Shown: piece by piece, positions 4,806 through 62,827 of the stretch | Layout of the letters: every line of letters begins with the position of its first letter | Position numbering within the stretch: position 1 is the first letter of the stretch | Origin: Phorcus lineatus | Taxonomy: Eukaryota > Mollusca > Gastropoda > Trochida > Trochidae | Assembly (NCBI GenBank): GCA_921293015.1 | Contig: OV121097.1 | Span: 34,721,929 to 34,785,928 of the forward strand | Length of the DNA: 64,000 nucleotides | Reading direction: 5' to 3' | Translations under genes and position numbers: made by a program | Notes under the pieces: generated by a model | The model's input: only the letters and a program-made list of their open reading frames with translations | What the model was told of the DNA's origin: nothing | Database searches by the model: none

Positions 4806-4857
4806 ATGTATGCTGTCGGTCTTCTGGTTATCTGGACATTGTCGACCTTCGTCACAG
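4806..4857 (+). CDS. Gene A exon 1: signal peptide
   Basis: This 52-nt coding exon encodes MYAVGLLVIWTLSTFVT plus the first base of a Gly codon. It is a short hydrophobic leader typical of a secretory signal peptide. The donor is ACAG|GTTTGC, phase 1. Exon 1 of genes B and C is the same length, has the same phase and gives nearly the same peptide. Confidence 0.88.
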
Positions 4858-7800
4858 GTTTGCGTCTTTTAATATGTTGATAAAACTAAAGTGACTATAA
4901 TTCAGATGCCGTTTGATGTTAAGCCAGAGTAATAGTTCGAAAATGATAATCTAGAATAAATATTTAGTATATCAGTGAAGAGATAGTATTAAAAATGGGG
5001 ACATGTGGATAAGCATTAATTCATATTAACTTGGTTTATTTCGAGTAAGATCATTTAAAAAAAGTTATCTTACAGCAATGCAAGAAGTAAGTTGTCAAAG
5101 AAATGGCGTACAAGATTATAATAATTATGCCATTGGTTACTTTAAAGAAATGCTAGGCAGTTTTGTAATTGAAATATTAAAAGAAAGCGATTCCAGTTGA
5201 CGATTAAATAAAAGTGGGGGTGGAAAGAAGGACAATTTTATAGCGATTTGTTATTTCGTTGTAGAAAATATAAAGGTTTATACAACAAACATAAGAAAAG
5301 TATAATTCTTTGAAAACACCACTCTATTGTGAACATGAACGGATATGTCAACTCATTTAATGTTGGAAACTAGCAATTATTAAGATTAATACAAACAGAG
5401 AAATATTCTCGATGAAGGGGTCATCAAGAAATATAAAAAAGAACGTATTTTTGCCTTTATCACTTGAGTCATATTGAAATATATCCCTCGAGTTTAGGTA
5501 AACTTTTGGCTAAGATTTTATTATGATATACATTGGTAAAAAAATGGGTAAAATATATAGATATCACACATACAACGTAAAATCACTTACCACCCACCAC
5601 ATTATATGGACGGTGAAGATTTTCACCCATGTTTTACCGACGTTTTGCTTACGATATCACCTTCCTGTGGGCTCATATCACACTACAATTTAATATAGTG
5701 ATATGATGTTGTTATTGCTACTACAGACATTCGGAATTGGGTTAAGCGTACGTAAAATATTTCGATGGTTTCTACAACCGACATCCTTAGTTGGTATTTA
5801 GATGGGAGATAATGCTGAAAGTAATAAATCTTTACATATATGTTTTTCAATGAAATGCACATACTTTTTTTAAAGAATATTTATAAGAAAGTATGCAATA
5901 ATCAACAAAACATTCAAATTGTCTCATGGTAAAATTCCTACGAAATCTACATTACATGTATTGCCAGTGCCATCATGATGAACATTCTCTTTTCATGTAT
6001 CGCTGTAGAGTTGACAAACCATTAAAGGACCACTCAGTGAGTTATTGGATTCATATATGCCAAACTTAATCAATGGTGTCACTTGATCGCCAAGTATCGA
6101 CTGTTACCAAAGAGACACATTTTAAAGCTTATTCGTCATGTACGATGAAAATATATAAAGGTCGATAGTCGTACTTATGTAGTAAATAATGACCCTGTGC
6201 CGAGCGGTAATGGCAAATAAACTCGCGAGGGCATAGCCCGAGCCGAGTTTATTGCCTAAACGCGAGGCAATCGGGTCATTATTAAGGATTCAGCAATTTT
6301 GCTGAATCCTTATTGTTATTGGCGTGTTTTATTATTTTTTTTCCCCACCGATTTTGTGGACACGATTTAGCCCAAACCGCTAAAGCTACAACAGCCAATC
6401 TTCGCAGTCTGGTAGAATTTCATGAGAAGGGGTTCTAATAAGCTTTTGGGCTTAATCGGATTAAGCGTTAAAGGCACAGTGCCACTCAAATTTTCAAAAA
6501 TTAACATGGGATTTTTTTTCAAAATGCACTTAGAGACCTGAAACCTTTTTTAAACGATAGGCAATTACCTTTGGAGCAAAAAAGTAAATCATGGCAATTT
6601 CGTAGCGTTAGTACTTTCGCCGCCATATTCTTTTTTTGACTTTTTTCAATTTCCGGACCCCATGCATCTTTGACAATCTTCTTCTCTGAAGATACATGCA
6701 ATTAAGAGCCGAAACTCACATATATCATAGCTGAAGGAGTGGAAGCTCGATAGCTGAAGTTATCGAGCCACATTTGCAATTTTCTTAATACGTTTTTTTC
6801 TGCAACCCTTCAAAGTCGGGCGACTTAGCTCCTGTGACCATGTTCAAGGGGCGATAACTCAAAAAGTTAGACTCACCATTGCACCATTATTTCAGGAATG
6901 TGAAACCACTATAGGCACTTGACAAATCGAAAAAAACATTGGTCGCGAAAAGTCATTTCCGTTCACAATAATCGATCAAAATCGGGAAAAATACCTTTTT
7001 CAAAATTAACATGGGGTAATTTTTCAAAATTGACTTAGAGACTTGAAACTTGTTTTGAAAGAACCGTAATATCAATTCAAACAAAACAGTAAATCATGAC
7101 GAATTCTTATGTGTCATGTTTTTTTTTTTAGCATTATCAACTTCTTTGCAATAATCGCAGTTTGGTTACAAAACTTGGTCACATAAAACATGCTGCTGTG
7201 GACTAATGCGTGAGCCAATCTTCATGAGACTTTCAGGGTTGAATGCTAACATGACTATGTTTGTACTGAATGTGCTTTTACAGCGCTGAATCCTGTCGCT
7301 TGCGACTATATTTTAGCTTACAATCCCGCGGAATTTATATTTATATTTAATGAATTTACAAACGTTTTACTTTTACACTTTGCGGGTTGATGTTTTCCGA
7401 CCGAACGAGTCTACTAAAATATTTACAAAACACGCCAGATTTAGATTTTAAAGCTTTACATCAGAAATTTACAAAACCTATTACCTATAAATACATACAG
7501 GGGGAAATCAGTGTAGATATGACACAACAAAAAGTTCCTTAGCTTACATGGATCCTCGTGAGCTCCAGTGGTCGAGGCGTTGCTAGTCAACGGAGAGGTC
7601 CCGGGTTCGCATCATTATGAATCTTATATTTCTAGCTTGTTGAAATTTTCAAATTTTACACGACCATTGAACATCTCATAACCGAACCAGGTGTTCAGTA
7701 ACTGAAATGATGTTTAAAAACAAGTTAAACCCCAGCTCATCTCATAACCGACCATGGTAGTTATGAGATAACCAACCTGCGCACATGGTGGTTACGGCAT

Positions 7801-10800
7801 ATAATCTTCAAATAAAACAAAGGAAATAACTTCCCAAGGGGTGGAGGATCAAAAACAAAAAGTCTTACACAGCCAGGAGGGCAATTAGGAGTTGATAGTT
7901 TGTTAGGTTATATAACTAGTATCCATGTATATTGGACGTGATATCTACACCTCTGTGCATCTATAAGGCTGTTTTTTGATTTTCATTGAAAATCAGTATT
8001 TGTTAAAAATATATCTTTTGGACAGGAAACGTTAAGATGTTTTGATTTTATATCACCACATATGACATTTAGGTTCGTATCAAAGGTAAATAATATGTTA
8101 TGAAAATCACGGAGTGGCTCTTTAAAGAACAATAGTGTATGTAAGTGTTTCTGAATCAACATTATGTTTTAAAAACACAGACGATATCAATTGGTAGATA
8201 TCTCTTTAACAACAACAGGATATATGAGAAATAAGGATGGGTATCGCTCCTCAATATATTGCAATAAAGAAAAGTGTATTGCAATACGTATAGCAATATA
8301 TTGGTTCTTTTCATATTTTAGTTTTTCCATGCTCTCGACTTAATAACACTTTTCAAGTTTACACTTTATGTTAAAACTTTCATTTCATTGTAACGTTTTT
8401 CTGCAAATTTACATGGAAATTGTAAATTTGTAAAGCTCCGATTTATTGGATACATTCAGAAGAGAGTACCGGTACGTATCGTCTTGTTTCTGTATTGCAA
8501 TATACCGATATACCGATAATACCGCGCACCTTTAATGAGAAATAAAAAGAATATCAAGATAAGTCGATTTGTTTCTCGAATGAGTACCGTGCGTTGTGAA
8601 TAATGCTTGCATTAAACGGATTTTTCTTCGTTCCCTACTGTGCCAGCTAGGGTTGTAGTAAAGATGAGTAAATGTTTCTTCTTTTAATTTGTAACATTGG
8701 TTATATACACAATAAATTCGTGGACAGAAATAACCGTTAACATGTTGACAAAGAAAAGAGACTTAAACTGACAAAAACAAAGATATATTCAAAGTAAAAA
8801 AAAGATTAGTTCCGTAAAAGGGTAAGTTACTATAACTTAACTCGTTCTTGATTAGTGACATGGTGGTTTTATGCAAATTACCTCAAAAAGCCATTTGGAA
8901 AAATTGAAAGTTTACAAGAATTACTCTTCTGTAATTTTCATCTGTCAAAGCATCGTTTAGATTCGCATTACCAGTGGTCGAAGTAATTTTAAAATTCGAA
9001 CCTCGTTTGAGAGCGTCTTAATTTGCAGCATTATATTAATTTGCAGCATTACACTATCCCCGTATGGTTTTGTTTGATTTTTGATTTTTTGATTTAAACA
9101 TATTTTATTCAGTGAAGAAAAGGATTAGGTACAAGTTATCCAACTTAAGTAACCTACTCCTAAGTATTTACAAATGCATATTACACAAAAACATATATGT
9201 AACAAGGAAAGTGATATATTACAGAAATAGTATAGTAAGAAATATACAAATTAACACAATGTACATACTGCAGTCAGGAGAATCGCTTACTGTTTGATAT
9301 ATATTGTTGGACTGCTTTGAAGATGGTCTGATTGTGCAGATATGATACGTTCTTACTGCCATTTAGAAGTAAATCTAAATTTACATCATTATCTTTCACA
9401 TACAGTTTTAACATGTTGAACAATTTTCGTCTCTTGTAGCATATATTGGACACTCAAACATAAAGTGAAAAACATTTTCGCATAAATAACCACATTTGCA
9501 TGTTGAATCTGGCTTAATTCGAACATTAAATAGATCATAATTTAAGTCACTTACATGATATCGCAAACGAGTGTGGTGAATATTTAGAATGCGTATACCT
9601 GATGAAAAATAACTGGGTGCTGAAATATTGGGTTTTTCCAAATACGATTTAAACTTTTCTCTTGATGGTAAATTTCGCTTGTCTAAAGGGATATTATTCC
9701 ATAATAATGTGGTTGAAGGGATAAACGACATGGTTGAGTGTTTCAATCTATAAGCCGGAATAACAAATTGGTCTGCGTTTCTAAGAAAATGAGGAGTTGA
9801 ATCACCAACGGGGGTAGGGAGTAAATCTATCAGATATGGTGGTTTTGTTTTCCAAAGTTAAAAGAGTTCTTTGACAACTATCTGAGATCATAGTGTTACG
9901 AAATAATTTGGAATAGTAAATTATCCCCAGTCAAACCAGCAAAATGTAACAAGACAATGGTATATTAATTACAATTTAATCAATCAAATAATAAACAAAG
10001 TGTTTAAGATTTCAATATCAAGCTTATACAAATAATAATACTATATCAAATGAGTCACACTAAGTTGATGAATGTAGAAAACAGTCAGTGGGTCTTGATA
10101 GGAGATAGATGAATCCGGCTTGTAAAGGAATCCAAAAACAGTGGAACGGCAGATGATCGCAAAGTTGATTGTAAGAAGCAAGATGAGTAAGAGTTCTAAT
10201 GCCGGCCTATATATAGGTTAGATACCTTCTAAAATGTTCTTTAAAGTTCCTTGACAAACTCCAGAAAGAAGTAGCCAACACAAGCAATAAAAAATAGATA
10301 GAACATCCTAGAACAGATGATTCTAGACACTGCCAGCTAAGACTATCAAAACAAGTGTAAGTGTGGCCCACTAAACAATACAACAATGTTATACAATGTT
10401 TAACTCATAAACAATAACATACTCATAACAATTGTAAATTTTCCATTATTTATTTCCAGGTACGGACTACCTTATATCGGTTCCTACAGCAAGCTATGTA
10501 GACGTCTCCACTGATTACTACGAAGGGGGTTCAGTGAGAGTAGCCTATCCGAATCACGATATACATCAGGGATACGGGTTCGTTTCCAGCCGTTCTTTTC
10601 GTTTAGAGAACACATTAAGTACAATGCTTGGATATGACAACAACACTATCCTTATATCAAGCAGCCACAGCGCAATCAAGGTCCAAGTTTACAGCCGCAC
10701 CGTCTGGGACAAACACAATTTGTTCTTCTCTCTACCACTCACTGCACTGGGGACCAAATACGTCGTGTCCTCATGTATCCAAAATGTCGAGTATTCAGTT

Positions 10801-13800
10801 CTTGTGATAACAGCATATAAACGTAATGCAGATGTTGCTATCAGATTTGATACGGATGTTGAGTTTTCATACGATGGTCAGAACTACGGAAAGGGGGACA
10901 TTTTTAGACTTAGTTTAAAATCTTTCCAAACGTTTACCTTTAGAGTTAGACATGACCTGAGTGGAACAAGGATCAACAGCACAGAGACCATAGCAGTGTT
11001 CAGTGGGACAGCCGACATTGCGACCGTATACACTTACACCCAGTTGCTGCCTGTTGAACAGTTCTCTGATGAGTATGTTGTTGCAGTTGATGACAGCCTG
11101 CCACCCATTCAGCTTCAGATAATCGGGGAAGACAATGGCTTTGAGATAACGTTCAGCAATGGAACTTTGGCTTCAACAAATAATGGCATCCTGAACCGTA
11201 TTCTGAAGACAAATGAAACATTTCACTTTGTGTCAAGCAAACCTGTCATGGCGACCCTTTGCAGGAGTGTTGGGAATCAGAAAGGATTTGCTTTAATCCC
11301 GCCAGTTTCATCATATCCTGATCACAAAGAAGTATATTTGACTGGAACTACTTTGATTGTGACATTAAACACAACAAATATACGTGTCAACGGCGCGAAT
11401 GAAGAATGGAAGCATATTTCCAATTCTCAATTCAAAGTTGGGGCATACTCACGAAAACCATATGGTGGGTCAACTTCTTTTCAAACATTTCGTGGCATTT
11501 CCTTCTTCTTCATACCAAACTCATTTGTCATTAATCGTGTATCAATAGTGAAGGATGAACCGCAAATCACAGGTAAGTGCTGTCTTATAAATATAATTTT
11601 GATAAACGATGTAAGCCTTAAATCTCCACACCTAGACAGGATTGTTAATACTGAACTCAAACATTACCAAAGCGGCGTTAGACAAAAACTCACTCACTGT
11701 AACTTGACTTTAAATGGATTGAAACAGGAAGCGGTACACTTATGTCTAGCTCTCTGGACAAAACCACGGTTTTATTTATTGAAAGTTTCTGCAATAAACT
11801 TAAGTTTACGCCAAATGTATTTTCTTCAGAGGGTGAATATCTTAACCCAATCATCAGTAACCGTAGAAGAAATAATCAAGTGTCATTAAAAAACACCCTG
11901 TGGCCGTTTACCCTTTACCTTTAATCATTTGCTTTTTGCTTTTTATTATTCTGTACAATTAGTTTGCAAACAAAAGAGTTTTGCAGAAATTAGAAAACAT
12001 TGTTGTGTTAAACGACTGAACTAGAACTATGTTCAGCTTTGCAATATACATATGTCTTTAAACCTATGACACGGAAGAAATATTCTTTATTGAAATACCT
12101 TTGTAACTAAACTCCAAGGCAGAAGAAACGTTTCACGTTTGTTTTGTTTTTCATGAAAACATTAAGCGGGTACGGGTTTGATTCTAAGCAGTAAAGTATA
12201 GTATTACTGCAATATTTCCTCTACAGAAACGCATCGCATCGCATCGTATGCAGACATTGGAATTGCAAAATGTGAAACGAGTTTTTGATGCATGATTTGC
12301 GATGCACGTGACCAAGATATCGGTATGTCAACTATGGGGCCTTCCGAACATCAGAAGGCTGTTAATACGCTACCAGCAGACAGACGATCCACAGGCAAGA
12401 CCATGATCGGAAAGACCAGGTACAACTGCTGCCAAACATCTCTACACCAGGCAAATTAACCTCCGAAGCCGGCGACAGCACTCTGTCATGTCATCATCAC
12501 AAGAAAAACCCTTCGTCGACTTCGTTTGGCTGGTTAACGAGCCTACCAACCTGTAGCCGGTGGCAGCGTCGTGACTGGGAGAAGGTGCTGTTTACAGACG
12601 AGAGCAGGTTTTGCCTATTAAGGAATGATTGCAGGTCACAAGTGTATCTGCGAGGGGGCGTGCGACTTGCGTCAAACTGCATTAGATAGGCATCATGTTT
12701 AGGGGATGGATTTGTGACGAAATGACGACGCCGCTGTTTGTTCTGCGAGGGAATCTGACTGGCCATTGATGAGGTACTGAGACCTATCGTCGTTCCTTTC
12801 ATGCAACAAGAACCAAGAAGATTGATATTGCAACACGACAACGCAAGACCTCACACTACCCGAAATATTAGAAATGTCACTGTTTTGCCGTCGCCAGCCA
12901 ATTCACCAGGTATGAACACCTTTGGGATCACCTTGACCCCCATTGACACAGCTAGTTCCACCTCCAAACAACCAGCAAGAACTTGAGCAAACTCTGTTAA
13001 ACGTATGGAACAGGATCCCTGCTGACGTCCTCTAACGCCTGGCGACTTCAATGAGGAGGCGTGAACGTGCTTGCATTGATGCCTAGGGTGGTCACAATCG
13101 CTATTGATGACAGAATCCGTGATTTCTGTGCCCCCTAGAGTTTCTCCGAACTTTTAACTCCACATTTTCATAATATTTAATATTGAGCACGTGTTTCTTT
13201 CCTTGAGTATTTGGGCAAATTAGATGCCGATATTTGGATGCTTTTTAAAGAGAATAACGGAAAATTATTTCTGTTCAAAACAAATCTTCAGAATATCTCT
13301 TATCATATCTCATTTTGAAAAATGAGTGAAACCTTTCTTTTGCCTGAAGGGGCGGGAAAGCGCAGTGTTTAGCGCGTTCGGCTTCGGATCAAGAGGTCCG
13401 TGGTTAGAATCATCCCAGGGACTCGGCAACTTTATCTGCAGTAGAGAACTGTTTTACACGCAGTCAGCTTTGGGTGCAATGTTTCACTGAGTTTCTGCGT
13501 AGTACCATCTATGGTTCGCTAGTTCCAGCCGTTGCTCGCAGGTTTCACCGCAATGCATAACCTCAATAGTGTTGCGGGCTTTCTCGCTGCGATGATACTA
13601 GCAGCCGCGATATAAGTGAAATAATCTTGAAAGCGGCGTTAAACGTCAACTCACTCACTCTTTTGCCTGGAGCGAGTTGGATGGGGTTTAACGTGTTTAG
13701 CCTGGAAGTTGACATTTATTTCTCATGAACAGTATAAGCAGTTTTGTTGTATTAATAAAAGCAGCATTTGTGTACAGAGTGTGTGAAAAAATTTAATATT

Positions 13801-16800
13801 ATCGATAGCATGGTAAGTGCTTTAATGAAAAAGTTTCAAATTGTTTGATATACGTCTTTTAGAATTAAAATAAGGGAGAATTGAGAAATCTTATAAATTG
13901 TGTAGAGATATAACCTTCGAATCCTTCAAAAGCAGGACGAAGTGTAAAGATATAACTTTTGAAACCAAAATATGAAATTTTCTTTCTGTCTTCACCAAGA
14001 TGCTAACATCATGTATTGGAATCAAGGAAACCTTGTTAATAAAAAAGACAAAGTCATTACCTTAAAGTATTCTTTTTTAAGGTAAATTTGTTTAAGATTA
14101 ATCGAGTGAGTGAGTGAGTTGGGGTTTAACGTGCTTTCAACAATATTTCAGTTATTAAACACGCGGATGACAAGCATCCAAAAGAGAGTGGACAGATCAG
14201 GGAGAAAGGGATAGAAAGGATTAGGGAAAAGACGGAAAGAAAGGCATAGTGAGAGATAGTAAGCAGGTTTTAGATTAATCGAAGACTCCATTCAACATTA
14301 GAAACTCTCAACCTTCATGTTTATTTTTATACTTTCAGCCATTTCATTTCTTGGTCAGAACTTTTCAAATGCCCTGCAATTACCTAAAGATCTATATTTG
14401 AATATGATAGCGCTCATTGAATCCATTTAATGAATAATTTTTCAAACAAAACATCAAACCAGCGCCAGATTTTTCCAGTAAATAAGTAACTTTAGATAAC
14501 TCCCTTTTTAGGTCATCAGGTCTGAAAGACCCGATGGGCTTATGGCATGGCAAGGCGTCCGGCGTCCGTCCATCCGTCCATCCGTCCGTCCATCCGTCCA
14601 TCCGTAAACATTTCACTTTTTCAACTTCTTCTCCATAACCAATGACTCTAGAGAGCTGAAATTTTATGTGCATACTCCTTGGCAAATGGGGATTCTTAAT
14701 TGTAAATTTTGTGACCCCATGACCCCAAATGGGGTCACAAGGGTCAAAACTTTAAAAATCTATTTTAATCTTCTTCTCCAGTTCCAAAAGGTCCAGAGAG
14801 CTGAATAGTTGTGTGTAGACTCCTTGGGCACTGGAGATTCTAAATTGTAGATTTTGTGACCCCATGACCCCAAATGAGGTCACAGGGGTAAAAATATGAA
14901 AAACCTATTTTCATCTTCTTCTCCAGTTACAAAAGGTCTAGAGAGCTGAAAAGGTGTGTGTAGACTCCTTGGCAAATGGGGATTCTAAATTGTAGGTTTG
15001 GTGCCCCCATGACCCCAAATGGGGTCACAGGGGTCAAAACCTATAAAACCTAATTTCATCTTTTTCCCTAGTTCCAAAATGTCTAGAGAGCTGAAAAGGT
15101 GTGTGTAGACTCCTTGGCCAACAGGGATTCTAAATTGTAGGTTTGGTGACCCCATGACCCCAAATGGGGTCACAGGGGTCAAAACCTAAAAAAACTAATT
15201 TCATCTTTTTCCCTAGTTCCAAAAGGTCCAGAGAGCTGAAAAGTTGTGTGTAGACTCCTTGGGCACTGGAGATTCTAAATTGTAGATTTTGTGACCCCAT
15301 GACCCCAAATGAGGTCACAGGGGTCAAAACATGAAAAACCTATTTTCATCTTCTTCTCCAGTTACAAAAGGTCCAGAGAGCTGAATAGTTGTGGGTAGAC
15401 TCCTTGGACACTGGATATTCTAAATTGTAGGTTTGGTGACCCCATGACCCCAAATGGGGTCACAGGGGTCAAAACCTAAAAAACCTAATTAAATCTTTTT
15501 CCCTAGTTCCAAAAGGTCTAGAGAGCTGAAAAATTGTTTGAAGACTCCTTGGACACTGGGGATTCTAAATTGTAGGTTTGGTGACCACTTGACCCCAAAT
15601 GGGGTCACAGGGGTCAAAACCTAAAAAATCCTACTTTCATCTTCTTCTCCAGTTCCAAAAGGTCTTGATAGCTTAATAGTTGTGTGTAGACTCCTTGGAC
15701 AATGGGGATTCTGAACTGTAGGTTCGGTGACCCGTTGACCCCAAATGGGCAATGGGCCTTTTTTATTTGATTGTGAATAACTCGGACGTTGGGACAGGCT
15801 ATCTTTCCTACACTGCCCATGACCCCATGGTCTAAACCACAACACCTATTTCTATCAAAAGTCTGATGAGCTACAGAGCCCATGGCTCTATTTTTCAAGG
15901 ACCCCACTACCAGAGTTGTATTGTTTTATGAATCTTTTATTGTGTTTATGTTACAGATCTTAAGGACTCTTTCATTTTTGTTGCCCCGTCGGTTGGGTAT
16001 GCTAGGGAAAGAATGGCAGTTATAGGAGAAACAGAAGCCTTCTACCAAGTGAGATGCCCTGGTAGAGACCTTATCAAAAGCCGGTACACATATCCCTATG
16101 TTGAGGATTACATGGAAATACCTTCTAACACGTTGTGTATTGTGAATGCCGATGAAGAAAAGCTTCATTTATTTCTTCAGGAGGACTTGGCACATATTCT
16201 TTTATCTGCACCTATTCTCCCTATTACAAGCCTTGGGAAGAAATACGTCATACCTTCATATGACGTGAATATAGTAAGCCAAGCACAGATCACTATAGCC
16301 ACAGGGAATTGGACGGCATCCGTCGATGTTACAAATGAACTTGGAAGTGTTACTCGTTATGAGCTAGCTGAATACAAGTCAAGAACAATAAACAGTGAGG
16401 CTGTTGGGATGGTTGTATCTGCATCTCAAGAAATCGCTGTGTTTAATGAACACAGATACGCTAATTACGAAACATATAAAGACATGTACACTCAGCTGAT
16501 ACCAAGTGAAGATTTTGGCAAAGAGTATGTGCTTGCAGTTGGATCGCTTAGAATAACATACTTCTTTAAGGGAGATATCCTCACTGAAAGTTACTATATT
16601 AACATAACCTGTCTCGATAACAATACAAGCATCGTTTTCAATGACGGGGTGAGCGTGACGATTGGTGAATCAAGGTTTTATCGTAAGGATGTAATGGTCA
16701 ATGGAAGTTTGCAATTTACCTGTTCCAAACCGGTGATGGTATATCTCTGCATGAAGGCTGAATTTCATGGTAATGATGGAATAGTTCGAGAAAATCCTTG

Positions 16801-19445
16801 CAGCATTCTGCCTCCCGTGGAACAATATAGAGAATCTGCTGTGATCAGCATACCTGCAAATGCATATTTAAAGATATTGACTAACCAAGAAAATTATGAT
16901 TTTCATGCATTCACAGTTGACAATCAATACCAAAACACACAATTAATTGTAGATTGGAACAATATTCCAAACACACACTATAAAGTCGGAACAGCAACGA
17001 CAAAAGGTGTTACACTGTTTATGGAATCAACAAAAATGTTTTCCACAATAATGTACAGTTTTGACTGCTGCCTCCAAGCCTTGTTGGTCATCTCAACCAT
17101 CTCCCGGAGTGTCCACCAGAGAACAACGAGTCTTTCCACAACTGCAGGTTAGTTCTTTTGTCATACTGACTCGCTGTGTCCATTGGAAAATAATGCTTAT
17201 ATCAATATGCGACATTTCTAGCAAGACCAATTTATTGATCACAAGTTATGAGGTTACTTACTATTTTGGAAATGAATTGCTAACACCTCTATGCTTTAAG
17301 TTTGAAGTCGCTCATATTTAGTGAGTGTTGTCTTATGCTTGAAAGGTGTCACATGTTTTAAGTACAGATTACAACACACATTATACACCTAGTTAATAAA
17401 TAGACACAACAAATATCTTTTGTAAAAATGGGCCTTTGAAATATTAATATTAAAGGGAAGTAAAATTTGTCTGTGATCATAATCTTGAATGATATTTAAT
17501 TGTACATAACCACACTTACTTTATACTGATGTAGCTATCCATTTTATTTACTTAGTAAAGTTTAGAGAAATCCTAATGAGTTTGCTTTAAATACACAAAC
17601 TGAAAAATGATCGGAAGAATGGTAACATTCAGAACACAGCAGTACGCCTATTGGAACAGAAAGTTATTCTATAGTTTTGTGTTCTTTTTACAAAACTTAC
17701 TTGATTTTCGCACTGTTATCTCAACTTGAAGTTTTAAAAATAGTACATAGCTCTTATACAAGGGGTTGTGTTTGACATCTCGCATTTGGGTTTGATTGAG
17801 TTTCTATTTGATAAATTGTGTCAGTCTCATTTCGTTTCCTAAAATGGGGCATAAGGGTTTCATTATAGTCGAGGGAAATTGTAAAGTTACTTTTTTTCTC
17901 CTTTTAATCAAACATATTTGATATTGATAGATAGATATCGTCATTATTCGTTATTTTTAAAAATAATGCATAACACTATTTTTTAAAGGTTTAACATCAG
18001 AACTTACTCCAACAAGTTCTCCAAATGATTTCAAGCAGACAACTGATTTTTCATCAGAACTGACCTCAGCAAATACACTGGAAGACCATCACGAGACAAC
18101 TGAATTTTCATCAGAAAAGACCTCATTAAGCACATCGGTAGACCATCATCAGACAACAGATATACCTTCCCCTTCATCAAGCAAAGTGACTTCAGAGGTG
18201 TCTTCATTTACCACACCTAATGATTATGAGTATAACGGTGATGACAGCACTGTAATGGAAGAAGGTGAGATAAGGATTATATCCGTGTAAAAAAATGTTA
18301 AAGTTAATCCCTAAAGTGAGAATTAAATACATTAAATCACACATTTGATTTGAAACTGCAAACTTCTTAGATCATAAAATCTAAAATTCCTCAAATAAAG
18401 CTCGAAACATATCAAATAGCAATACCATTATTTCTAATACTCAATTAAAAAATAATTTCTTGGGAGAAACTCATTTTAAAATGTTTAGATATCATCCGGA
18501 ATTATCCATATAAAGGTTTTAAAATATATGTAGGAAGTCATATCAGAAGACATTTTGAAGTATTGTGTCTAAATGGCTATAAACAGATTTAGAAGTTAAT
18601 TCAGGTATGCATAAGGAAGAATCTTCAACTATAACTTGTTTGTCATTGCTTTCCAGATAGGAGTATAATCCTATTGGTGGTTGGCTGTGTTTGTGGAATC
18701 ATCATTCTTGCCCTGGGATTCATCATTGGCTTTCTTGTCATTCGAATGTAAGTTTTAATTACTACAATTGGAAATAAAAGGTCGTCTTTTAAAGATTGAA
18801 TAAAAAAAACGAAATAATGACAATCGCCAAACTGCAGCAAATTGATTGTTTCACTCTGTATAGAAACAAACTATACTCCCAAACATTGACAATTAATGAA
18901 CATAGCCTTTAAAGAAATATTGAGAATGTTGATATTTCACTTTGTGTAAGAAAATGTCTGTAATCATCTTTAAGTGCAAATTAAAGATTATGTTGAAAAA
19001 CTAAATAAAAGTCATCAAAGTAGGCCACATTGACCTGCATTATGTTTGTCATACCAGAATTCTTTGCTGTGTGCAGAAATGACCTTTTCCTGATTCTAGG
19101 AGGCGGAATAAAAAATCCAACTCCATTCCCAATACACAAACAAGTCGGACAAGTCATACTACACAGGAGACGTCGCTTGAAGGGGAGAATACAACACCAG
19201 AAACCCGAGAGCAAAGATCCCAAAGTAACATTGAAGAAGAAGAAAGTCATATATATATAGACCTGATATCGGAGCCACAATCAGTTGATGAATACGAGAG
19301 TGTGGATGGGATACATGGTAACCTTGACACCCCACAACAAGTTAAAACCTATTCTGATTTGATCTTCGAAGGGCAGGCTGATAACGAATACGAGAAACTA
19401 GATCATAAGAGACAAGAGAAAAAGCCTGACTATGCCAATGTTTAG
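4806..19445 (+). CDS. Gene A: type I membrane receptor-like protein with two IgGFc-binding-like domains and ITAM-like tail (6 coding exons)
   Basis: Coding exons are 4806-4857, 10460-11572, 15957-17147, 17989-18264, 18657-18747 and 19100-19445. They join in one frame to 3069 nt (1022 aa plus stop), and every junction is GT-AG. Seen: signal peptide (1-18), two homologous large domains (about 19-388 and 389-785), a Ser/Thr-rich stalk (786-877), one transmembrane helix (about 880-906) followed by RRNKK, and a cytoplasmic tail (908-1022) with Y960, Y973, Y992, Y1005 and Y1019 in YxxL/V or YxN contexts. The two large domains share the signature YTQL.P...F..EYV.AV and resemble the IgGFc-binding protein N-terminal family (FCGBP N-terminus), which in vertebrates is secreted. 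Several NxS/T sites lie in the ectodomain. Gene B has the same six-exon plan and gene C begins the same way. Inference: a cell-surface recognition receptor that could recruit SH2 proteins. No ligand is shown; the family name does not prove antibody binding, since molluscs lack IgG. Confidence 0.88.
6186..7865. mobile_element. Insertion inside TIR element copy 1
   Basis: This segment is absent from the 55-kb relative. It starts near AATAATGACCCTGTGCCGAG, has a perfect-looking hairpin AGGATTCAGCA..TGCTGAATCCT at 6283-6311, and has an internal degenerate repeat (CAAAATTAACATGGG at about 6495 and 7000). A tRNA-like head with a GGGTTCGCATC B-box lies at about 7553-7620. No coding frame was recognised. 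Confidence 0.55.
7545..7625 (+). repeat. tRNA-derived SINE head
   Basis: CTCCAGTGGTCGAGGCGTTG resembles a pol III A-box region, and GGTCCCGGGTTCGCATC a B-box, about 40 bp apart. It does not fold as a complete tRNA in my reading, so SINE-derived is preferred over a tRNA gene. Confidence 0.5.
9300..9850 (-). pseudogene. Non-LTR retrotransposon ORF2 C-terminal fragment
   Basis: On the minus strand at about 9408-9746 the frame encodes LWNNIPLDKRNLPSREKFKS, then TRLRYHVSDLNYDLFNVRI and a CKCGYLCENVFHFMFECPIY zinc-knuckle block. This is the usual CxC...H...C tail of LINE reverse transcriptase proteins. The catalytic RT core is missing. Confidence 0.7.
10460..11572 (+). CDS. Gene A exon 2: first IgGFc-binding-like domain
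   Basis: This 1113-nt phase 1-1 exon encodes residues 18-388. It opens with TG-TDYLISV, matching TG-SDYLIAV in gene B. The core carries LGTKYVVSS, INSTETIAVFSGTA, YTYTQLLPVEQFSDEYVVAV and a late cysteine (MATLCRSVGNQKG). These blocks align with gene B exon 2 and, more weakly, with exon 3 of both genes. Predicted N-glycosylation sequons include NNT, NST, NGT, NET and NTT. The acceptor is TTTATTTCCAG|G and the donor ACAG|GTAAGT. The frame stays open past the donor to 11889, so intron retention would add a non-homologous tail. Confidence 0.88.
11671..11705 (+). repeat. SINE tail fragment
   Basis: AAGCGGCGTTAGACAAAAAC followed by TCACTCACTG matches the 3' ends of the SINEs at 13.6 and 52.7 kb. 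It lies within the open frame that follows gene A exon 2. Confidence 0.6.
12115..13350 (+). mobile_element. Tc1-like element with broken transposase
   Basis: Terminal inverted repeats are CAAGGCAGAAGAAACGTTTC (left) and GTGAAACCTTTCTTTTGCCTG (right, slightly mismatched). Inside, on the + strand, are Tc1 transposase remnants: the VLFTDESRF region near 12590, LLQHDNARPHT near 12830-12860 and SPGMN near 12905. Frameshifts and stops interrupt it throughout. The total of about 1.2 kb is near full length for this family. Confidence 0.75.
13352..13665 (+). repeat. tRNA-type SINE
   Basis: It has a pol III-like head (AAGCGCAGTGTTTAGCGCG), a degenerate B-box (GTGGTTAGAATCATCC) and a tail ending GCGGCGTTAAACGTCAACTC then ACTCACTC. 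It has about 310 bp and sits directly against the Tc1 right end. Related pieces lie at 1-128, 11671-11705, 14103-14170 and 52665-52735. Confidence 0.82.
14103..14170 (-). repeat. SINE tail fragment
   Basis: GAGTGAGTGAGTGAG followed by TTGGGGTTTAACGTGCTTTC is the reverse of the GTTAAAC...CTCACTCACTC tail family. Confidence 0.6.
14560..14606. repeat. CCGT/CCAT simple repeat
   Basis: A run of CCGTCCAT tetramers immediately before the 145-bp array. Confidence 0.9.
14620..15765. repeat. 145-bp tandem repeat, eight copies
   Basis: The anchor GTGACCCCATGACCCC or its variants occurs at 14711, 14856, 15001, 15146, 15291, 15436, 15581 and 15727, a period of 145-146 bp. Each unit contains AGAGAGCTGAA, GTGTAGACTCCTTGG, GATTCTAAATTGTAG and TGACCCCAAATGGGGTCA followed by CAGGGGTCAAAAC. 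The array ends about 190 bp before gene A exon 3. Confidence 0.93.
15957..17147 (+). CDS. Gene A exon 3: second IgGFc-binding-like domain
   Basis: This 1191-nt phase 1-1 exon encodes residues 389-785, starting D-LKDSFIFVAPSVGYARERM. Conserved blocks shared with gene B exon 3 include LGKKYVIPSYDV, ATGNWT, YTQLIPSEDFGKEYVLAVGS, YYINITCL, VMVNGSL and a CSILPPVE cysteine motif. YTQL.P...F..EYV.AV is also in exon 2, which supports an old internal domain duplication. The acceptor is TTACAG|AT and the donor GCAG|GTTAGT. Confidence 0.88.
17148..17988 (+). other. Gene A intron 3 (841 bp)
   Basis: It runs from GTTAGT to TTTTTTAAAG. It is AT-rich with no recognised element or exon inside. Confidence 0.75.
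17989..18264 (+). CDS. Gene A exon 4: Ser/Thr-rich stalk
   Basis: This 276-nt phase 1-1 exon (residues 786-877) is rich in S, T, E and D. It holds about three imperfect repeats of roughly 19-21 residues, including TTDFSSELTSANTLEDHH and TTEFSSEKTSLSTSVDHH. Mucin-like, probably O-glycosylated membrane-proximal spacers look like this. The equivalent exon of gene B is only 150 nt. The acceptor is TTTTAAAG|G, which has a weak polypyrimidine tract, and the donor GAAG|GTGAGA. Both phases fit the neighbouring exons. Confidence 0.82.
18265..18656 (+). other. Gene A intron 4 (392 bp)
   Basis: A short AT-rich intron from GTGAGA to TTTCCAG. Gene B's equivalent is 8703 bp because of a Polinton insertion. 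No element was seen here. Confidence 0.78.
18657..18747 (+). CDS. Gene A exon 5: transmembrane helix
   Basis: This 91-nt exon encodes about 30 residues, including IILLVVGCVCGIIILALG and the following FIIGFLVIR. That is one hydrophobic span with a GxxxG (GCVCG) motif; gene B keeps GCVSG at this place. It is followed by basic RRNKK from exon 6, as expected for a type I stop-transfer. The acceptor is TTTCCAG|AT and the donor AT|GTAAGT, leaving phase 2. Gene B exon 5 is also 91 nt. Confidence 0.86.
18748..19099 (+). other. Gene A intron 5 (352 bp)
   Basis: It runs from GTAAGT to TTCTAG. Gene B intron 5 is 354 bp, so this intron has kept its size since duplication. Nothing else was recognised. 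Confidence 0.78.
19100..19445 (+). CDS. Gene A exon 6: cytoplasmic tail with YxxL motifs
   Basis: The exon is 346 nt including TAG at 19443-19445. The tail (908-1022) is polar and acidic in its middle (IEEEES), then carries YIDL, YESV, YSDL, YEKL and the C-terminal DYANV. YIDL to YESV and YSDL to YEKL each have nine residues between motifs. The acceptor TGATTCTAG|G restores the frame from phase 2. Homology with gene B is strongest in the last 50 residues. Confidence 0.86.
19254..19400 (+). other. Two ITAM-like motif pairs in gene A tail
   Basis: Y960-I-D-L, nine residues, Y973-E-S-V; then Y992-S-D-L, nine residues, Y1005-E-K-L. ITAMs are YxxL/I-x(6-12)-YxxL/I, so the second pair fits well and the first fits with V for L/I at its second half. 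Y1019-A-N-V further on matches the Grb2-type pYxN preference. Phosphorylation and SH2 recruitment are inference. Confidence 0.65.
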
Positions 19446-20190
19446 GATGATGTCAGGACTTCTGTTCTGAAATTTTGTATTGATCGATTGTATAGAATTG
19501 ATAAATACACCTGTAATCCTCTGTTTGTATAATCTTTTGCTCATATTTAACATGACAATAATCCTGACTACGCAAATATTAAGGATGATGTTCTGAAATC
19601 TTTAATTGATCCGTTGTATAGAAATGATAAATACACCTGTAATCCTCTGCTATATTCATAAGTATCCTCATATTTAACATGACAATAACCCTGACTATGA
19701 AAATATTTAGGATGATGTTCTGAAGTCTTTTATTGATTAATTGTATAGAATTGATAAATACACCTGTAATCCTCTGCTTTGTATCATCTTTTGCTCATAT
19801 TTAACATGACAATAACCCTGACTATGAAAATATTTAGGATGATTTTCTGAAATCTTTTATTGATTAATTGTATAGAAATGATAAATACACCTGTAATCCT
19901 CTGATTTCCTTTTGCTCATATTTAACATGACAATAACCCTGACTACGCACATATTTAGGATGATGTTCTGAATTTTTTTATTGATCGATTGTATAGAAAT
20001 AATAACAACACCTGGGATCCTCTGCTTCCCTTTTGCTCATATTTAACATGACAATAACCCTGACTATGAAAATATCTAGGATGATGTCAGGACTTCTGTT
20101 CTGAAACTTGAATTGATCATTTTTTATAGAAATATTCAATTAAACTTTGGTCCTCTGTTTTGGTCTCCTTTTGCTCATAAAAGACATGCA
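19425..20190 (+). repeat. Tandem copies of gene A terminal codons plus 3' flank
   Basis: The block CCTGACTAYG...TTTAGGATGATG recurs at 19425 (the real C-terminus), 19563, 19690, 19817, 19938 and 20059, at spacings of 138, 127, 127, 121 and 121 bp. Shared text includes GATAAATACACCTGTAATCC and CTCATATTTAACATGACAAT. Each copy repeats a PDY(A/E)(N/H)(V/I) sequence, usually followed by a stop. They lie after the gene A stop, so they are probably 3' UTR. Confidence 0.85.
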
Positions 20191-30650: not shown

Positions 30651-30654
30651 GTCC

Positions 30655-31960: not shown

Positions 31961-32012
31961 ATGTATACTGTGGTTCTTCTGGTTATCTGGACCCTGTCCA
32001 CCTTCGCAACAG
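31961..32012 (+). CDS. Gene B exon 1: signal peptide
   Basis: This 52-nt exon encodes MYTVVLLVIWTLSTFAT plus a split Gly. The donor is ACAG|GTTTCA, phase 1. It is nearly identical to exon 1 of genes A and C. Confidence 0.88.
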
Positions 32013-50000: not shown

Positions 50001-53000
50001 TAGGTTATGCATATGTTATGCATATGGTTTTGCATATGGTTACACTTTTGGTCAGCTAGATATTGTATTATTGAAGGGATCTTTAAAGTTTGATTCACTT
50101 CTGAGAAATATTTAAAGACCCTTCATTTTCAAAATCTTTTATTCTCTTAACAATACGTCCCTTTTGTTCCTTTTCATAATCTAAATGTTCATGCAATTTT
50201 CATAGTTGAGACCTCTTTGAGGTCGAGCCCTCTTAATTACCCTGTACTCAATTCTTAACCCTGAGATTTTGATAGTGGTCGTTAATCATTTTTATGACTT
50301 TATCAATTGTATCCTCAGCTTGATTTTGACCTCGGTTTGGTTGTTTTACTAAGTTTGCTTTTGCTTCATTCAATTGAGACTTTCAACTCTCGTAGTTTTT
50401 TTTCTGGAAGGTTTAGTTTAATGTTTGGAAGTTTATATTCTGTAAACCAAATTGGTTATGAATAATATCTACACATGCACGTTTTGAGTGCTTAAAGACT
50501 CAATTTCCCCTTTTTATCGTGGACAGTCGTTTAGTCTAACCTGTCTATTTCTATCAGATGGTACCAATGATGAAGACAGTACCATTGTACAAAATATTGG
50601 CAAGGCAAAAGTAAAGAAAACCACTTTTAAGATTAGTAGTGATGAAGCATTATCAATTGATGATAGTGATATATATCACACTTATATGGATCTTTGGGGA
50701 TCCACACAAGAAAGAAATAATTAACAAAATCAGGGTATTGATACAACTGAAAATCAAAATGCAACAAGATTGCGGATGGGAAATGACTTGGATTCTTGGA
50801 TGACTTGATTCAATTTTGAACCATTTAGCAATAGCGGATAATCTAAGAAATAAATTTTACATTCCTCTAGATTTAGAGTTGCCTGATAGTCACATGTCTA
50901 CCTATCAGGCTGCTTCGGGAGATGAATGACAATATAAACTACGACTTAATGAAAAACAACTTATATAGTTTATAGGCCAAAACGAAATATGAAATTAAGA
51001 ATATTGCACACAGACAAATTTGGCACGTGAAATCCATTCTTTTTTGTTATAGCCCAGTGATCGTATACTTGGTCATTGCATGGTACCAGTTTATAAAAGT
51101 GATACGGTTTGGAATAGCAGTATGAATGTACCTGAATCATTTTATAACGCTACAAGAAAACCTTTCATACGACTATTGGAGGAGTTACAAATTAACTTAA
51201 CAGTCAACATATACCTAATAATTATTTATGAGATAAGATGAAAAAACTAGTCATGATAAAGCGTCGTCCAATAACATATATGGTGATGAAAGATTAAAAT
51301 CTGACTTATATAAACTGACAAGTACGCTTTGTGGCTTGATCTACGAACAACCGATAACGACGGCTCTGGAAGAAGACTTATGGCAGTGAAGAAATGGCAA
51401 TTGTAATCACCAAAAGAAGTAAAAACCGCTGGAACAATACATATTTATTTACGGATGATCGAAGAATTATGGCAGTGAAGAAATGACAATTGTAATCACC
51501 AAAAGAAGGAAAAACCGCTGGAACAATTTATTTTCGGATGCTCGTTGAATATTGATGTTGAGAGGTTTGACTCTATTGCCTATTAACAGTGTTTTTTAAT
51601 AGTAATATGAGAAAATGCTGTAGGTATAAATGGGAACTTTGATTAACCGGTGAGCAAAGCATATTTTTAATATCACAAGGGAAAACTACGAAGTACATTT
51701 TGTGTTTTCGATCCCGTTGGTCGAGAACCCTATTTATCCCTAATTGTTGTCATTTAAATTTAAGTATTTTTATCAGAATTTATCTTAAACTCTAAATCTT
51801 ATTTTCTTAATAAAAAGTTGATCAGTCCGTGGCTTAACTTAAAAGGTGTTGGTTAAACCACGGTTAACAATAAAGGAGCAAAGGTCCAATCTGCACTAAT
51901 CGATATGCTCAGCATTAAGTCAAGTGACGAAGATTACCACAAGACAACCTTTGAAGAGGGATTAATAATAAACACACAAAAGGGAGCTTTCACACTGAAT
52001 AAGAAACCTAAAATGCCAAACAAAATATTTGAAAAACAAATCGTTATGAAACATTTTGGGCTGAGTTAACTAACACAATTTATACAGTGGAAGATAAAAC
52101 GTGTCTGGACTAAACGACACATTTTAGTGTAAGATTTAAATCCTATTAAGAAATAAAGTAGGTGGTTGTAATAAACATTTCAAACAAAATAAAACTAAAG
52201 ATAAAAAAAAACATGAAATTATTGAATTTGACCTGAATTTATAATCCACGACTCGACATAGCTGGTGACGTCAAAACCCTAATGTTGTTGATACCATTCG
52301 CCCTTGTTCCATAACGTCATTCAAAAACTATTCTTTATCTCCGATCTTTATCTAAACAATGCTAGAAGGCGTTTTATAGATTATTGGCCGTCTTAATCGA
52401 CTACGACGTTTTGCTTATTTAACATGTGAAAGCGTTTTTTTCTGAACAGCCATCATGCATAGATTAATCCTGCTATTGCCTACTACATATTGAATGAGAC
52501 TTTAGGATAGTTATATTAAAAGTTGCTCGTCATATTTTCGCAGATAACAATGAAACCACATTGATTGTTGGCTGTGTGAGCGGATTCATCATTCTCGTCT
52601 TTGGGTGTATCGTTGGCTTTCTTGTATTTCGATTGTAAGTTTTAGATACACTGATTGTATCATTAAGATTTATCGCCGCTAATGGCTGAAATATTGACCA
52701 AGCGGCGTTAAGCAATAACTCACTCACTCACTCATTAAGATTTAATAAAGTACAGTATACTATACAGCATAAGAATTTCCTCACAAAGAAATATAACTAA
52801 AACCATTTTATATTAAATTTATTTTTCACAATTGTCGTTTTTTTCGTATTCAGTTGTTAATGGAACACTTCTTCCTAAGTCTCTTATGTTGACCATGATT
52901 TATTTGAACACCTCTTTTCATTTTGTTAATGACTGAATTGTTTGCAGTGTTGAGATAATTCTTCCTTTTGCTCTCTCCTTGTTTTCAGGAGACGCAACAA

Positions 53001-53325
53001 CAAATCAAAATCCAAGACTGATACCCGGACAAGTCAATCTAGTGCTACGGAACAGGAGACACCGTTTGACGGACACACCACACCAGTTGTCCAGAACAAA
53101 GTATTCCACGTTACCAAGGAAGACGGAGGGCATACCCATTCAAAACTGACCTCGGAGTCGCAGGCGGTAAATGAATACGAGAGCGTGGATTGGATACATG
53201 GTAACAGGGACACACTGCATGCTAACACTTATTCTGATTTGGTCTTTGAGGGGCAGGCTGATAATGAATACGAGAAGATAGATCAGAAGAGAAAAAACAA
53301 ACGCTCTGACTACGAAAATTGTTAA
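31961..53325 (+). CDS. Gene B: paralogue of gene A, receptor-like protein with two IgGFc-binding-like domains and ITAM-like tail (6 coding exons)
   Basis: Coding exons are 31961-32012, 32465-33592, 39486-40661, 43691-43840, 52544-52634 and 52989-53325. They total 2934 nt (977 aa plus stop) with all GT-AG junctions and the same phases as gene A. The order is signal peptide, two IgGFc-binding-protein N-terminal-like domains (about 19-393 and 394-785), short Ser/Thr-rich stalk (786-835), transmembrane helix (about 841-864) then RRNNK, and tail (866-977). Differences from gene A are a stalk of 50 rather than 92 residues, the first tail tyrosine replaced (HTHSKL against HIYIDL), and a C-terminus ending DYENC. 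Tail motifs are Y929ESV, Y947SDL and Y960EKI, with Y974EN. Intron 4 is swollen to 8.7 kb by transposons, but splice sites and frame are intact, so the gene looks functional. Role inferred as for gene A. Confidence 0.88.
32013..32464 (+). other. Gene B intron 1 (452 bp)
   Basis: A compact intron ending TCTAATTACAG, with a short TATATATATATA run near 32270. It is probably closer to the ancestral length than the 5.6-kb intron of gene A. Confidence 0.78.
32465..33592 (+). CDS. Gene B exon 2: first IgGFc-binding-like domain
   Basis: This 1128-nt phase 1-1 exon (residues 18-393) opens G-SDYLIAVHERSSVRI. It shares with gene A exon 2 the blocks LGYDD/NxTxLIS, LGKNYVVSS, LVITAYK, INSTETIAVFSGTA, YTYTQLLPVELFSDEFVLAVDD and TLCRSVGNQKG. 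It is slightly longer than in gene A because of an acidic insertion (EEHDDLDIEIEEH) near the start. The donor is ACAG|GTAATG, and the frame stops four codons into the intron. Confidence 0.88.
34249..34590 (+). pseudogene. Mariner-like 5' fragment (TIR plus HTH region)
   Basis: TA then CGAGGGGAAGTCAATAAGTT resembles mariner-type terminal repeats. About 160 bp later a frame encodes LTKEGVNSTEIHKRMNEVYG, matching the N-terminal HTH of mariner/SETMAR-type transposases. The element breaks off near 34590. Confidence 0.5.
35210..35385 (-). repeat. tRNA-derived SINE head, minus strand
   Basis: In reverse, TTGTTCGAGTCCCCGGATG looks like a B-box, preceded by AGTGGACGGACTGCGACATG as an A-box-like region. 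The fold does not make a full tRNA. Confidence 0.45.
35720..38169. other. Gene B intron 2, unassigned part
   Basis: AT-rich with scattered homopolymers. No repeat family or exon recognised. Confidence 0.5.
38170..38620 (+). repeat. LINE 3' region, copy 1
   Basis: ATTCAATCTTATTATGTCAA, GCGGCGCAAATCCCTCAGCA, CCCAGTGGCCGGCTCGTGTA and AACATTGTCATTTTTGTACT all recur in reverse at 57385-57655, directly downstream of a LINE ORF end there. This copy carries about 150-180 bp extra between the last two blocks. Confidence 0.68.
39305..39485 (+). other. Open in-frame stretch ahead of gene B exon 3
   Basis: Sixty codons stay open in the frame of exon 3 and the base composition is more balanced than in the surrounding intron. 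It contains further acceptor-like AGs (TTTTCAG near 39389, ACTTTCAG near 39449). Gene A has no counterpart. Could be an alternative exon extension or a transposon scrap. Confidence 0.35.
39486..40661 (+). CDS. Gene B exon 3: second IgGFc-binding-like domain
   Basis: This 1176-nt phase 1-1 exon (residues 394-785) starts D-PSEAFIIVSTDGGSSSYM. It shares with gene A exon 3 the blocks YPYV.DY, LHLFLQ, LGKKYVIP.YDV, LATGNWTSSVEV, YSQLTPSEDFGKEYVLVVGS, YYINITCL, DVMVNGSLHF and CTILPPVE. The acceptor is TTTACAG|AT and the donor TTCAG|GTTTGC. The reading frame is also open for 60 codons upstream of the acceptor; homology with gene A starts only at the acceptor. Confidence 0.88.
41069..42568. repeat. 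Segment bounded by 88-bp identical direct repeats
   Basis: 41069-41156 and 42481-42568 appear identical (CCTGAATAAAAAGATGAAGA ... GGAGTGCGCATGCGT). Between them is AT-rich DNA with two roughly 190-bp imperfect copies (AATAAAATATATTCCT near 41612 and 41810). It could be a solo-ended element or a duplication. Confidence 0.7.
42820..43160 (-). repeat. Dispersed repeat, minus copy
   Basis: Reverse of the 23600-23960 repeat: CTCCATCGACCTGCCAAAAG, TCGAAATTTAGACCCCTGG, GGAACATTTTATTC and CACACATGGACGATATGTG order is kept. Confidence 0.5.
43691..43840 (+). CDS. Gene B exon 4: short Ser/Thr-rich stalk
   Basis: This 150-nt phase 1-1 exon (residues 786-835) encodes a polar stalk including DHTSTSTLGDHQLSSGVDLS and ending in acidic DNIDLDG. 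The donor GGAG|GTGAGG matches gene A's GAAG|GTGAGA. It is 42 residues shorter than gene A's stalk, consistent with gain or loss of repeat units. Confidence 0.82.
44060..44400 (-). pseudogene. Tc1-like transposase N-terminal fragment
   Basis: On the minus strand, AIGMLQTETTDGDVALAFGC and the following LTILRL resemble the HTH region of Tc1 transposases, followed by a decayed RPTQKLETTGYNAK linker. Only the DNA-binding part remains. Confidence 0.5.
46050..46995 (-). pseudogene. Tc1/mariner transposase relic, minus strand
   Basis: The N-terminal HTH (MVRRPSSVEDRGRVIGMLQS, then GVSLREVAKRL) is at 46792-46930 and the C-terminal catalytic part (MEWPAFSPDLAPIEHVWDVL and GRRVREN) at 46270-46376. Intervening frames are broken. 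The SPDLAPIEHVWD block includes a DDE-region motif. Confidence 0.8.
47299..48296 (+). pseudogene. Tc1/mariner transposase relic, plus strand
   Basis: The HTH region (LTAEERERAIGMGLVGTNKS) is at 47299-47400; then come VLFTDESKFNFF (near 47705), MVWGGG (near 47838), LLQQDNAPPHTA (near 47985) and SPDLSD in order, ending IRARGGHTRY at 48293. At least three frameshifts separate the parts. Full-length order but inactive. Confidence 0.82.
50051..50540. other. Polinton interior, unassigned
   Basis: Short GTTATGCATATG repeats (49985-50040) precede AT-rich sequence with possible minus-strand coding traces too broken to assign. Confidence 0.35.
50540..51550 (+). pseudogene. Polinton capsid-like gene relic
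   Basis: Short pieces RNKFYIPLDLELPDSHMSTY (near 50850), VYKSDTVWNSSMNVPESF (near 51090) and KYALWLDLRTTD (near 51325), then ETAG-like text, follow the order of the Polinton/adintovirus-type jelly-roll capsid protein. Stops and frameshifts interrupt it. The end is locally duplicated (51370-51435 and 51472-51535). Dead fossil. Confidence 0.55.
51830..52500. other. Intron 4 remainder, unassigned
   Basis: May include the Polinton end. No clear terminal repeat or gene was seen. Confidence 0.4.
52544..52634 (+). CDS. Gene B exon 5: transmembrane helix
   Basis: This 91-nt exon encodes TLIVGCVSGFIILVFGCIVG and FLVFR, one membrane span with a GxxxG motif. It has the same length and phases as gene A exon 5. 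The acceptor is TTCGCAG|AT and the donor TT|GTAAGT. Confidence 0.86.
52635..52988 (+). other. Gene B intron 5 (354 bp)
   Basis: It runs from GTAAGT to GTTTTCAG and carries a SINE-type tail at about 52665-52735 (AAGCGGCGTTAAGCAATAAC then CTCACTCACTCACTC). It is otherwise unremarkable. Confidence 0.78.
52665..52735 (+). repeat. SINE tail in gene B intron 5
   Basis: GCCGCTAATGGCTGAAATAT ... AAGCGGCGTTAAGCAATAAC followed by CTCACTCACTCACTC. Truncated copy of the SINE family. Confidence 0.7.
52989..53325 (+). CDS. Gene B exon 6: cytoplasmic tail
   Basis: The exon is 337 nt including TAA at 53323-53325. The tail opens RRNNKSKSKTDTRTSQ, has a divergent middle, then regains identity with gene A: NEYESVDWIHGN, TYSDLVFEGQADNEYEKI and SDYENC at the end. 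Two Cys residues in the gene (SDYENC and TM-proximal ones) differ from gene A, which ends in V. The acceptor TTTTCAG|G completes a Leu codon. Confidence 0.86.
53230..53280 (+). other. ITAM-like pair in gene B tail
   Basis: Y947-S-D-L, nine residues, Y960-E-K-I matches YxxL-x9-YxxI. The upstream Y929-E-S-V is retained, but its partner position is His916, so gene B keeps one of the two pairs seen in gene A. Y974-E-N at the C-terminus keeps the YxN pattern. Confidence 0.65.
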
Positions 53326-57384: not shown

Positions 57385-58030
57385 TACAAAAATGACAATG
57401 TTGTTCATATATTAAGAAGAAGTACGCGAGCCGGCCACTGAAGGCCTATGAGAGACATAAAATCAATAAAATACATGATAAATTAATGACGCATAACAAT
57501 AAAAGATTAAAAAGTGACAATGTTTTTTTTAGAGATAAAACCTAGTGTATGCTAATGTATGCTGAGGGATTTGCGCCGCTTAAAAATTCGGAGGAGCAAT
57601 ACGGCTAATGATTTAGATTTAGTGCTTGACATAATAAGATTGAATTGGTCTACAATTGATAACTTTTGGAAGAGGGAAAGATGCTTTCAATATTATACCT
57701 AAGGTCAGAATAAGTTTCAAAAGACAGTAAAAAGTGTACCTCATTCTCTACTTGCTCTTTATGGCAAATTTTACCAAGTTCTATTTCTAATGGCAGCGTT
57801 CCACAACGCAGTTTACTAATAATACTCCTCTCAGAACGATCCAGGTTATATGTGACATAATTTTCTGTTTGCAACACATTCTTAAAACGGTATGTCCGCA
57901 ATTTGTTACCATGGATCAAACCTTTATCATTCCATAATTCAGCAAGCCAATTCTCATTGTCTAAGAGTAACAACCACTGTTTTGCAGTGGTAAATTCCAA
58001 TTTGAAATCAAATTGAAAACACAATTATAC
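57385..58030 (-). pseudogene. LINE ORF2 C-terminus plus 3' region, minus strand
   Basis: On the minus strand 57650-58024 encodes LWNDKGLI, SIISKLRCGTLPLEIELGK and ENEVHFLLSFETYSDLR, the usual tail block of non-LTR retrotransposon proteins (LxKLRxGxxxLxIExG...ExxxHFLxxC). The downstream 57385-57655 matches 38170-38620. The RT core is absent. Confidence 0.65.
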
Positions 58031-62742: not shown

Positions 62743-62775
62743 CCCTTGGGTCAACATTGAAGGTGTTAGACAAGG
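62743..62775 (+). other. 5' UTR part of gene C coding exon 1
   Basis: The acceptor-like GATTGTTTTAG ends at 62742, 33 nt before the ATG, the same spacing as in genes A and B. The sequence retains GGTCAACATTGA. Confidence 0.58.
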
Positions 62776-62827
62776 ATGTATGCTGTCGGCCTTTTGGTTA
62801 TCTGGACCTTGTCCACTCTCGTCACAG
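62776..62827 (+). CDS. Gene C exon 1: signal peptide of a third family member (partial)
   Basis: This 52-nt exon encodes MYAVGLLVIWTLSTLVT plus a split Gly. The donor ACAG|GTTTGA has the same phase and length as in genes A and B. No second exon appears in the remaining 1.2 kb, so the rest of gene C should lie beyond the window, or this is an orphan exon left by partial duplication. Confidence 0.75.

Follow-up and report, generated by a model that had tools for sequence, protein, structure and literature searches.

Tandem genes for candidate membrane receptors with paired PF17517 domains and tyrosine-bearing tails in the gastropod Phorcus lineatus

The window analysed here, 64,000 nucleotides of the Phorcus lineatus genome (Mollusca; Gastropoda; Trochidae; assembly GCA_921293015.1, contig OV121097.1, positions 34,721,929 to 34,785,928), holds two complete genes (4806-19445 and 31961-53325) and, of a third gene, the opening coding exon (62776-62827), all arranged head to tail. 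Both complete genes encode, in this order, a signal peptide, two PF17517 (IgGFc_binding) domains, a stalk, one membrane helix and a tyrosine-bearing cytoplasmic tail. We consider the array best explained, at about even odds (0.48), as tandemly duplicated type I membrane receptors in which the PF17517 pair would bind ligand and the tail would signal through its tyrosines; an immune function for such receptors may be supposed. What the PF17517 domain itself does is little understood; most of what is known of it comes from secreted mucus and glue proteins. The term ‘Fc-binding’ is simply the name of the family and is no evidence of antibody binding here; invertebrates are not known to have the antibody after which the domain is named.

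Gene models and encoded domains

Each complete gene was rebuilt from six coding exons (Table 1), giving proteins of 1022 (gene 1) and 977 residues (gene 2). An earlier, sequence-only reading of this DNA had proposed an in-frame GT-AG assembly with equal phases, and this is borne out by GT-AG borders at all 10 introns and by intron phases that are identical between the genes (1,1,1,1,2), the splicing of both models being predicted from sequence. The same reading had placed two complete genes and a third first exon in tandem, and its coordinates are right to the base: the first ATG of gene 1 has its A at 4806, and 62827 is the final exonic base of gene 3 exon 1, directly before the GT donor. Its description of the family as ‘expanding’ has to be qualified, as it is based on three copies in one window. 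Because conservation across the three aligned signal exons climbs right after TTTCAG or TTTTAG, a non-coding exon is likely to lie upstream of the signal exon. If the intron after exon 3 were retained, gene 1 would gain one Gly followed by a stop (17148-17152), yielding a soluble two-domain protein, and gene 2 would gain 33 residues (40662-40762).

Table 1. Coding exons of the array, with positions in the window and the evidence for each
Feature	Position	Strand	Evidence
Gene 1 first coding exon, signal peptide	4806..4857	+	translation, donor GT, three-copy alignment; exon start perhaps ~4773, after AG
Gene 1 exon 2, first PF17517 domain (A)	10460..11572	+	Pfam E 2.5e-28; phase 1 to 1
Gene 1 exon 3, second PF17517 domain (B)	15957..17147	+	Pfam E 1.5e-24; phase 1 to 1
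Gene 1 exon 4, Ser/Thr-rich stalk, internal 57-bp repeat	17989..18264	+	translation, repeat and composition scans
Gene 1 exon 5, membrane helix	18657..18747	+	hydropathy peak 3.09; phase 1 to 2
Gene 1 exon 6, cytoplasmic tail: YIDL, YESV, YSDL-x9-YEKL, YANV, stop	19100..19445	+	translation, motif scan
Gene 2 first coding exon, signal peptide	31961..32012	+	translation, alignment
Gene 2 exon 2, first PF17517 domain (A)	32465..33592	+	Pfam E 6.2e-21
Gene 2 exon 3, second PF17517 domain (B)	39486..40661	+	Pfam E 1.6e-21
Gene 2 exon 4, short stalk	43691..43840	+	translation, composition
Gene 2 exon 5, membrane helix	52544..52634	+	hydropathy peak 2.74
Gene 2 exon 6, cytoplasmic tail: YESV, YSDL-x9-YEKI, YENC, stop	52989..53325	+	translation, motif scan
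Gene 3 first coding exon, signal peptide; any later exons outside window	62776..62827	+	blastn to gene 1, translation, alignment

The Pfam scan covered the translations of six exons, four domain and two tail, with the short signal, stalk and membrane exons outside it. All four large exons match PF17517 (E 2.5e-28 to 6.2e-21; bit scores 75.4 to 99.6, gathering threshold 25.6), in agreement with their earlier assignment to the IgGFc-binding family. In the domain exons PF17517 alone passed the Pfam cut-off and Ig domains were not found; two further Pfam rows for gene 2 exon A (E up to 1) fall below the cut-offs, neither being an Ig model, and NCBIfam returned a single row for the four domain exons, under its own cut-off. 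The tail exons of both genes gave no Pfam match. Hydropathy yields a single strong membrane peak per protein, with a mean of 3.09 at residue 883 (gene 1) and 2.74 at residue 846 (gene 2) against second-best peaks of 1.59 and 1.47, respectively; the two-domain, single-pass architecture is supported. The Ser/Thr character ascribed to the stalk stands for gene 1 (39% Ser+Thr) and is weaker in gene 2 (28%). The proteins differ from FCGBP orthologues in that no vWD, C8 or TIL match occurs among the six exon translations and the GDPH autocleavage site is missing from both proteins, whereas a stalk, a membrane helix and a tyrosine tail are present instead of secretion. The notion that PF17517 is built of repeated sandwiches gained no support, as profile comparison of sub-segments gave a probability of 0.1 to 0.5% in eight of nine comparisons and the one high comparison (R3b vs R4) is an overlap of identical residues.

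Duplication, selection and tail motifs

Domains A and B share 21 to 24% protein identity in the three pairs measured (A1-B1 24, A1-B2 21, A2-B1 22) and are connected by tblastn (E 4e-13 to 8e-7), which argues that the pair arose by an old exon duplication. Between the genes, identity rises to 0.55 for A and 0.56 for B (tail, 0.54), and the whole gene was thus duplicated after the exon. With the domain exons as queries, tblastn found no additional copy within the window at E 0.1 or better.

The domain and tail exons are under purifying selection, which attests coding constraint in both copies and implies no specific role. Ratios of nonsynonymous to synonymous substitution (dN/dS) between gene 1 and gene 2 are 0.36, 0.30 and 0.37 for A, B and tail by NG86, and 0.43, 0.21 and 0.58 by YN00; third codon positions vary most in all three, and positive selection was not seen in any of them. 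The domain cores (dN 0.19, 0.24) are better conserved than the edges (dN 0.50 to 0.65), where dN/dS is 0.24 to 0.63 with some dS close to saturation. The membrane exon gives an NG86 value of 0.72 over 30 codons, which tells little, and the stalk gives 1.19 over 65 codons in a poor alignment that provides no evidence of positive selection.

The tyrosine motifs of the tails (YIDL, YESV, YSDL, YEKL and YANV in gene 1; YESV, YSDL, YEKI and YENC in gene 2) were scanned with definitions of the immunoreceptor tyrosine-based activation (ITAM), inhibition (ITIM) and switch (ITSM) motifs. The wide ITAM form, YxxL/I-x(6-12)-YxxL/I, occurs once in each tail as YSDL-x9-YEK(L/I), with a spacing of nine and one Leu/Ile change at the last position. 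Among 20,000 shuffles of each tail, the wide pair appeared in 1.13% (gene 1) and 0.12% (gene 2). ITIM ([SIVL]xYxx[ILV]) and ITSM (TxYxx[VI]) patterns are in neither tail, and NPxY was not found in them. The tail, called ITAM-like by the sequence-only reading, keeps that name for the wide form, and ‘ITAM-like, wide spacing’ would be its proper label. Behind gene 1 lies a 127-bp tandem array of about five copies (19463-20087), within a repeat region (19425-20087) that takes in the last codons of the gene; three copies after the stop (19690, 19817, 20059) still read PDYENI-stop.

Proposed mechanism and alternatives

In the receptor explanation, the two domains, predicted to be all-beta, would stand on a probably glycosylated stalk and bind an extracellular ligand, most likely a glycan or glycoprotein. 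Clustering by ligand would lead to phosphorylation of the tail tyrosines, upon which the paired YSDL-x9-YEK(L/I) might, judging from the motif, recruit a Syk-type tandem-SH2 kinase that would in turn drive uptake or transcription. Glycans are favoured as the ligand class on the predicted fold alone: after re-alignment, the best fold match for the central sandwich of both domain models is the ASRT/ASRAH sugar-binding superfamily of eight-stranded sandwiches (TM1070), and the match would offer a ligand class for a domain named after an antibody. Searched against the PDB by sequence, exon A gave one row, at E 0.34, and a four-sequence profile gave none up to E 10.

Several observations weigh against this reading. 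The classical ITAM, YxxL/I-x(6-8)-YxxL/I, occurs in neither tail; in gene 2 the tyrosine that comes first in the gene 1 tail has no counterpart, and the last motif closes with Cys. All five tyrosine motifs of gene 1 and three of the four of gene 2 also fit the endocytic YxxPhi pattern. The tyrosine neighbourhoods are not specially conserved, as identity near tyrosines vs elsewhere in the tail is 0.56 vs 0.51 for the five gene 1 tyrosines (a value reached by 45 of 113 circular shifts) and 0.65 vs 0.47 for the four shared ones. The fold models have modest mean pLDDT values (60.5 and 54.2) and were both built from the same four sequences; plain Foldseek put TM1070 23rd for A and not among the 50 rows listed for B. 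Neither Pfam nor a search of the PDB by sequence gave a link to ASRT/ASRAH, the ASRT-like signature SHExxCxxN is absent from both proteins, and the first matched strand has no Trp. Finally, in a challenge experiment, a clam gene that goes by the name IgGFc-binding protein, and that may or may not contain PF17517, has negative entries (-9.37, -8.78) for two stimuli (PMC7430831).

Rather unlikely, in our estimate, is that the products are membrane-tethered adhesion or mucus-layer proteins, with the PF17517 pair structural or cross-linking and the tail serving to anchor the protein and recycle it via YxxPhi. The fit to YxxPhi described above and the mucin-like stalk of gene 1 agree with this, as do the secreted settings of PF17517-type domains elsewhere, for example the tandem copies reported from frog skin glue (PMC11237159) and FCGBP reported in toad skin secretion (PMC10206775). 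Against it, a tail that is ~110 residues long, is under purifying selection and has four tyrosines common to both genes should exceed the needs of endocytosis, and YSDL-x9-YEK(L/I) has been retained with its one Leu/Ile change. Adaptor-like signalling, in which the tail would act via single SH2 sites such as Grb2 (YxN) and no paired ITAM, draws on the Y-x-N kept at the C terminus (YANV and YENC); we hold it to be distinctly improbable, given that each tail has a single YxN site and that the paired-motif segment (residues 982-1011) is better conserved than residues 1012-1022 (72% vs 45% identity). It would also be conceivable that the gene models are wrong, with the domain exons encoding separate secreted proteins and the tail exons being parts of other genes, as introns reach 8.7 kb (gene 2), splicing is predicted and intron retention in gene 1 would give a soluble form. 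That two paralogues agree in exon order, phases and GT-AG borders makes this very improbable.

The receptor explanation may be extended to a bolder conjecture, namely that PF17517 includes an animal form of the ASRT-type sugar-binding sandwich and the array a set of glycan receptors feeding the invertebrate Syk-CARD-Bcl10-paracaspase pathway, for which we see little more than an outside chance. Molluscs are among the groups named as having parts of the Bcl10-type pathway, and, as Syk is found together with CARD-CC/Bcl10 in invertebrates, the authors inferred ancient upstream ITAM receptors (PMC5978004). If the receptor explanation is true, the genes would be candidates for such receptors, and PF17517, otherwise known mainly from secreted mucus and glue proteins, would gain a sensing role.

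Related systems and other elements of the window

Many PF17517 proteins of molluscs, some of them with a membrane helix, are probably already present in public databases. Like ITAM receptors such as Fc-gamma-RIIA and Draper, the proteins described here would be single-pass with a paired YxxL/I tail; those receptors have another ectodomain, the spacing here is nine residues, and the likeness is one of motif that implies no homology of the tails. As in FCGBP and other PF17517 proteins, including the frog glue protein PRIT, a PF17517 domain directly follows the signal peptide, and PRIT likewise carries tandem copies (PMC11237159). According to the same source, PF17517 occurs across a wide range of metazoans, and in the vertebrate gene cluster it is mostly single and accompanied by vWD units, whereas the frog glue copies are tandem without vWD. 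Compared by description, the Guadeloupe Resistance Complex of Biomphalaria is also a snail cluster of single-pass proteins, in which the ectodomains are beta-rich and more than 50 residues flank the membrane helix on either side; FN3 domains are reported in four of seven, IgGFc is not a term of the main text, and resistance to parasites has been mapped to such snail clusters (PMC4361660).

The clam IgGFc-binding protein gene is named among those common to lipopolysaccharide and peptidoglycan challenge (PMC7430831), a PF17517 gene of Mytilus chilensis stands in a differential-expression table (PMC11817969), and the legend of a sponge receptor figure puts IgGFc-binding among ‘other domains’ (PMC8242945). 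Because limpet (PMC7333891) and abalone (PMC6003135) reports tie the name IgGFc-binding protein to vWFD or chitin-binding domains, with PF17517 not shown, the name is a poor guide to the domain. Among the matches listed from the open-licence literature, none describes PF17517 with a membrane helix and a tyrosine tail. The four-domain alignment found no confirmed relative in prokaryote genomes (77 pattern matches) or viral contigs (34), a result uninformative for molluscs.

Rfam (gathering threshold) and tRNA scans across the window gave no match, and eight other open frames gave two Pfam rows, both under cut-off. Broken transposon-like stretches were noted by eye in introns and intergenic DNA at 9411-9857 (-), 12366-13100 (+), 47631-48032 (+) and 57653-58024 (-), and the three of them that were scanned had no Pfam match at E 0.1. 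A 145-bp tandem repeat (7.8 copies, 14619-15749; a 435-bp period is also seen) lies in the second coding intron of gene 1, a 30-bp repeat (22.3 copies, 28641-29308) lies between genes 1 and 2, where the long open frames are probably artefacts of the repeat, and a 37-bp repeat with a CA run (466-673) lies upstream of gene 1. A dispersed AGCGGCGTTARAC-AACTCACTCAC element, presumably one that occurs in molluscan genomes and in keeping with the molluscan source, has three same-strand copies (11671-11697, 13632-13658, 52701-52727), against none in 100 shuffles.

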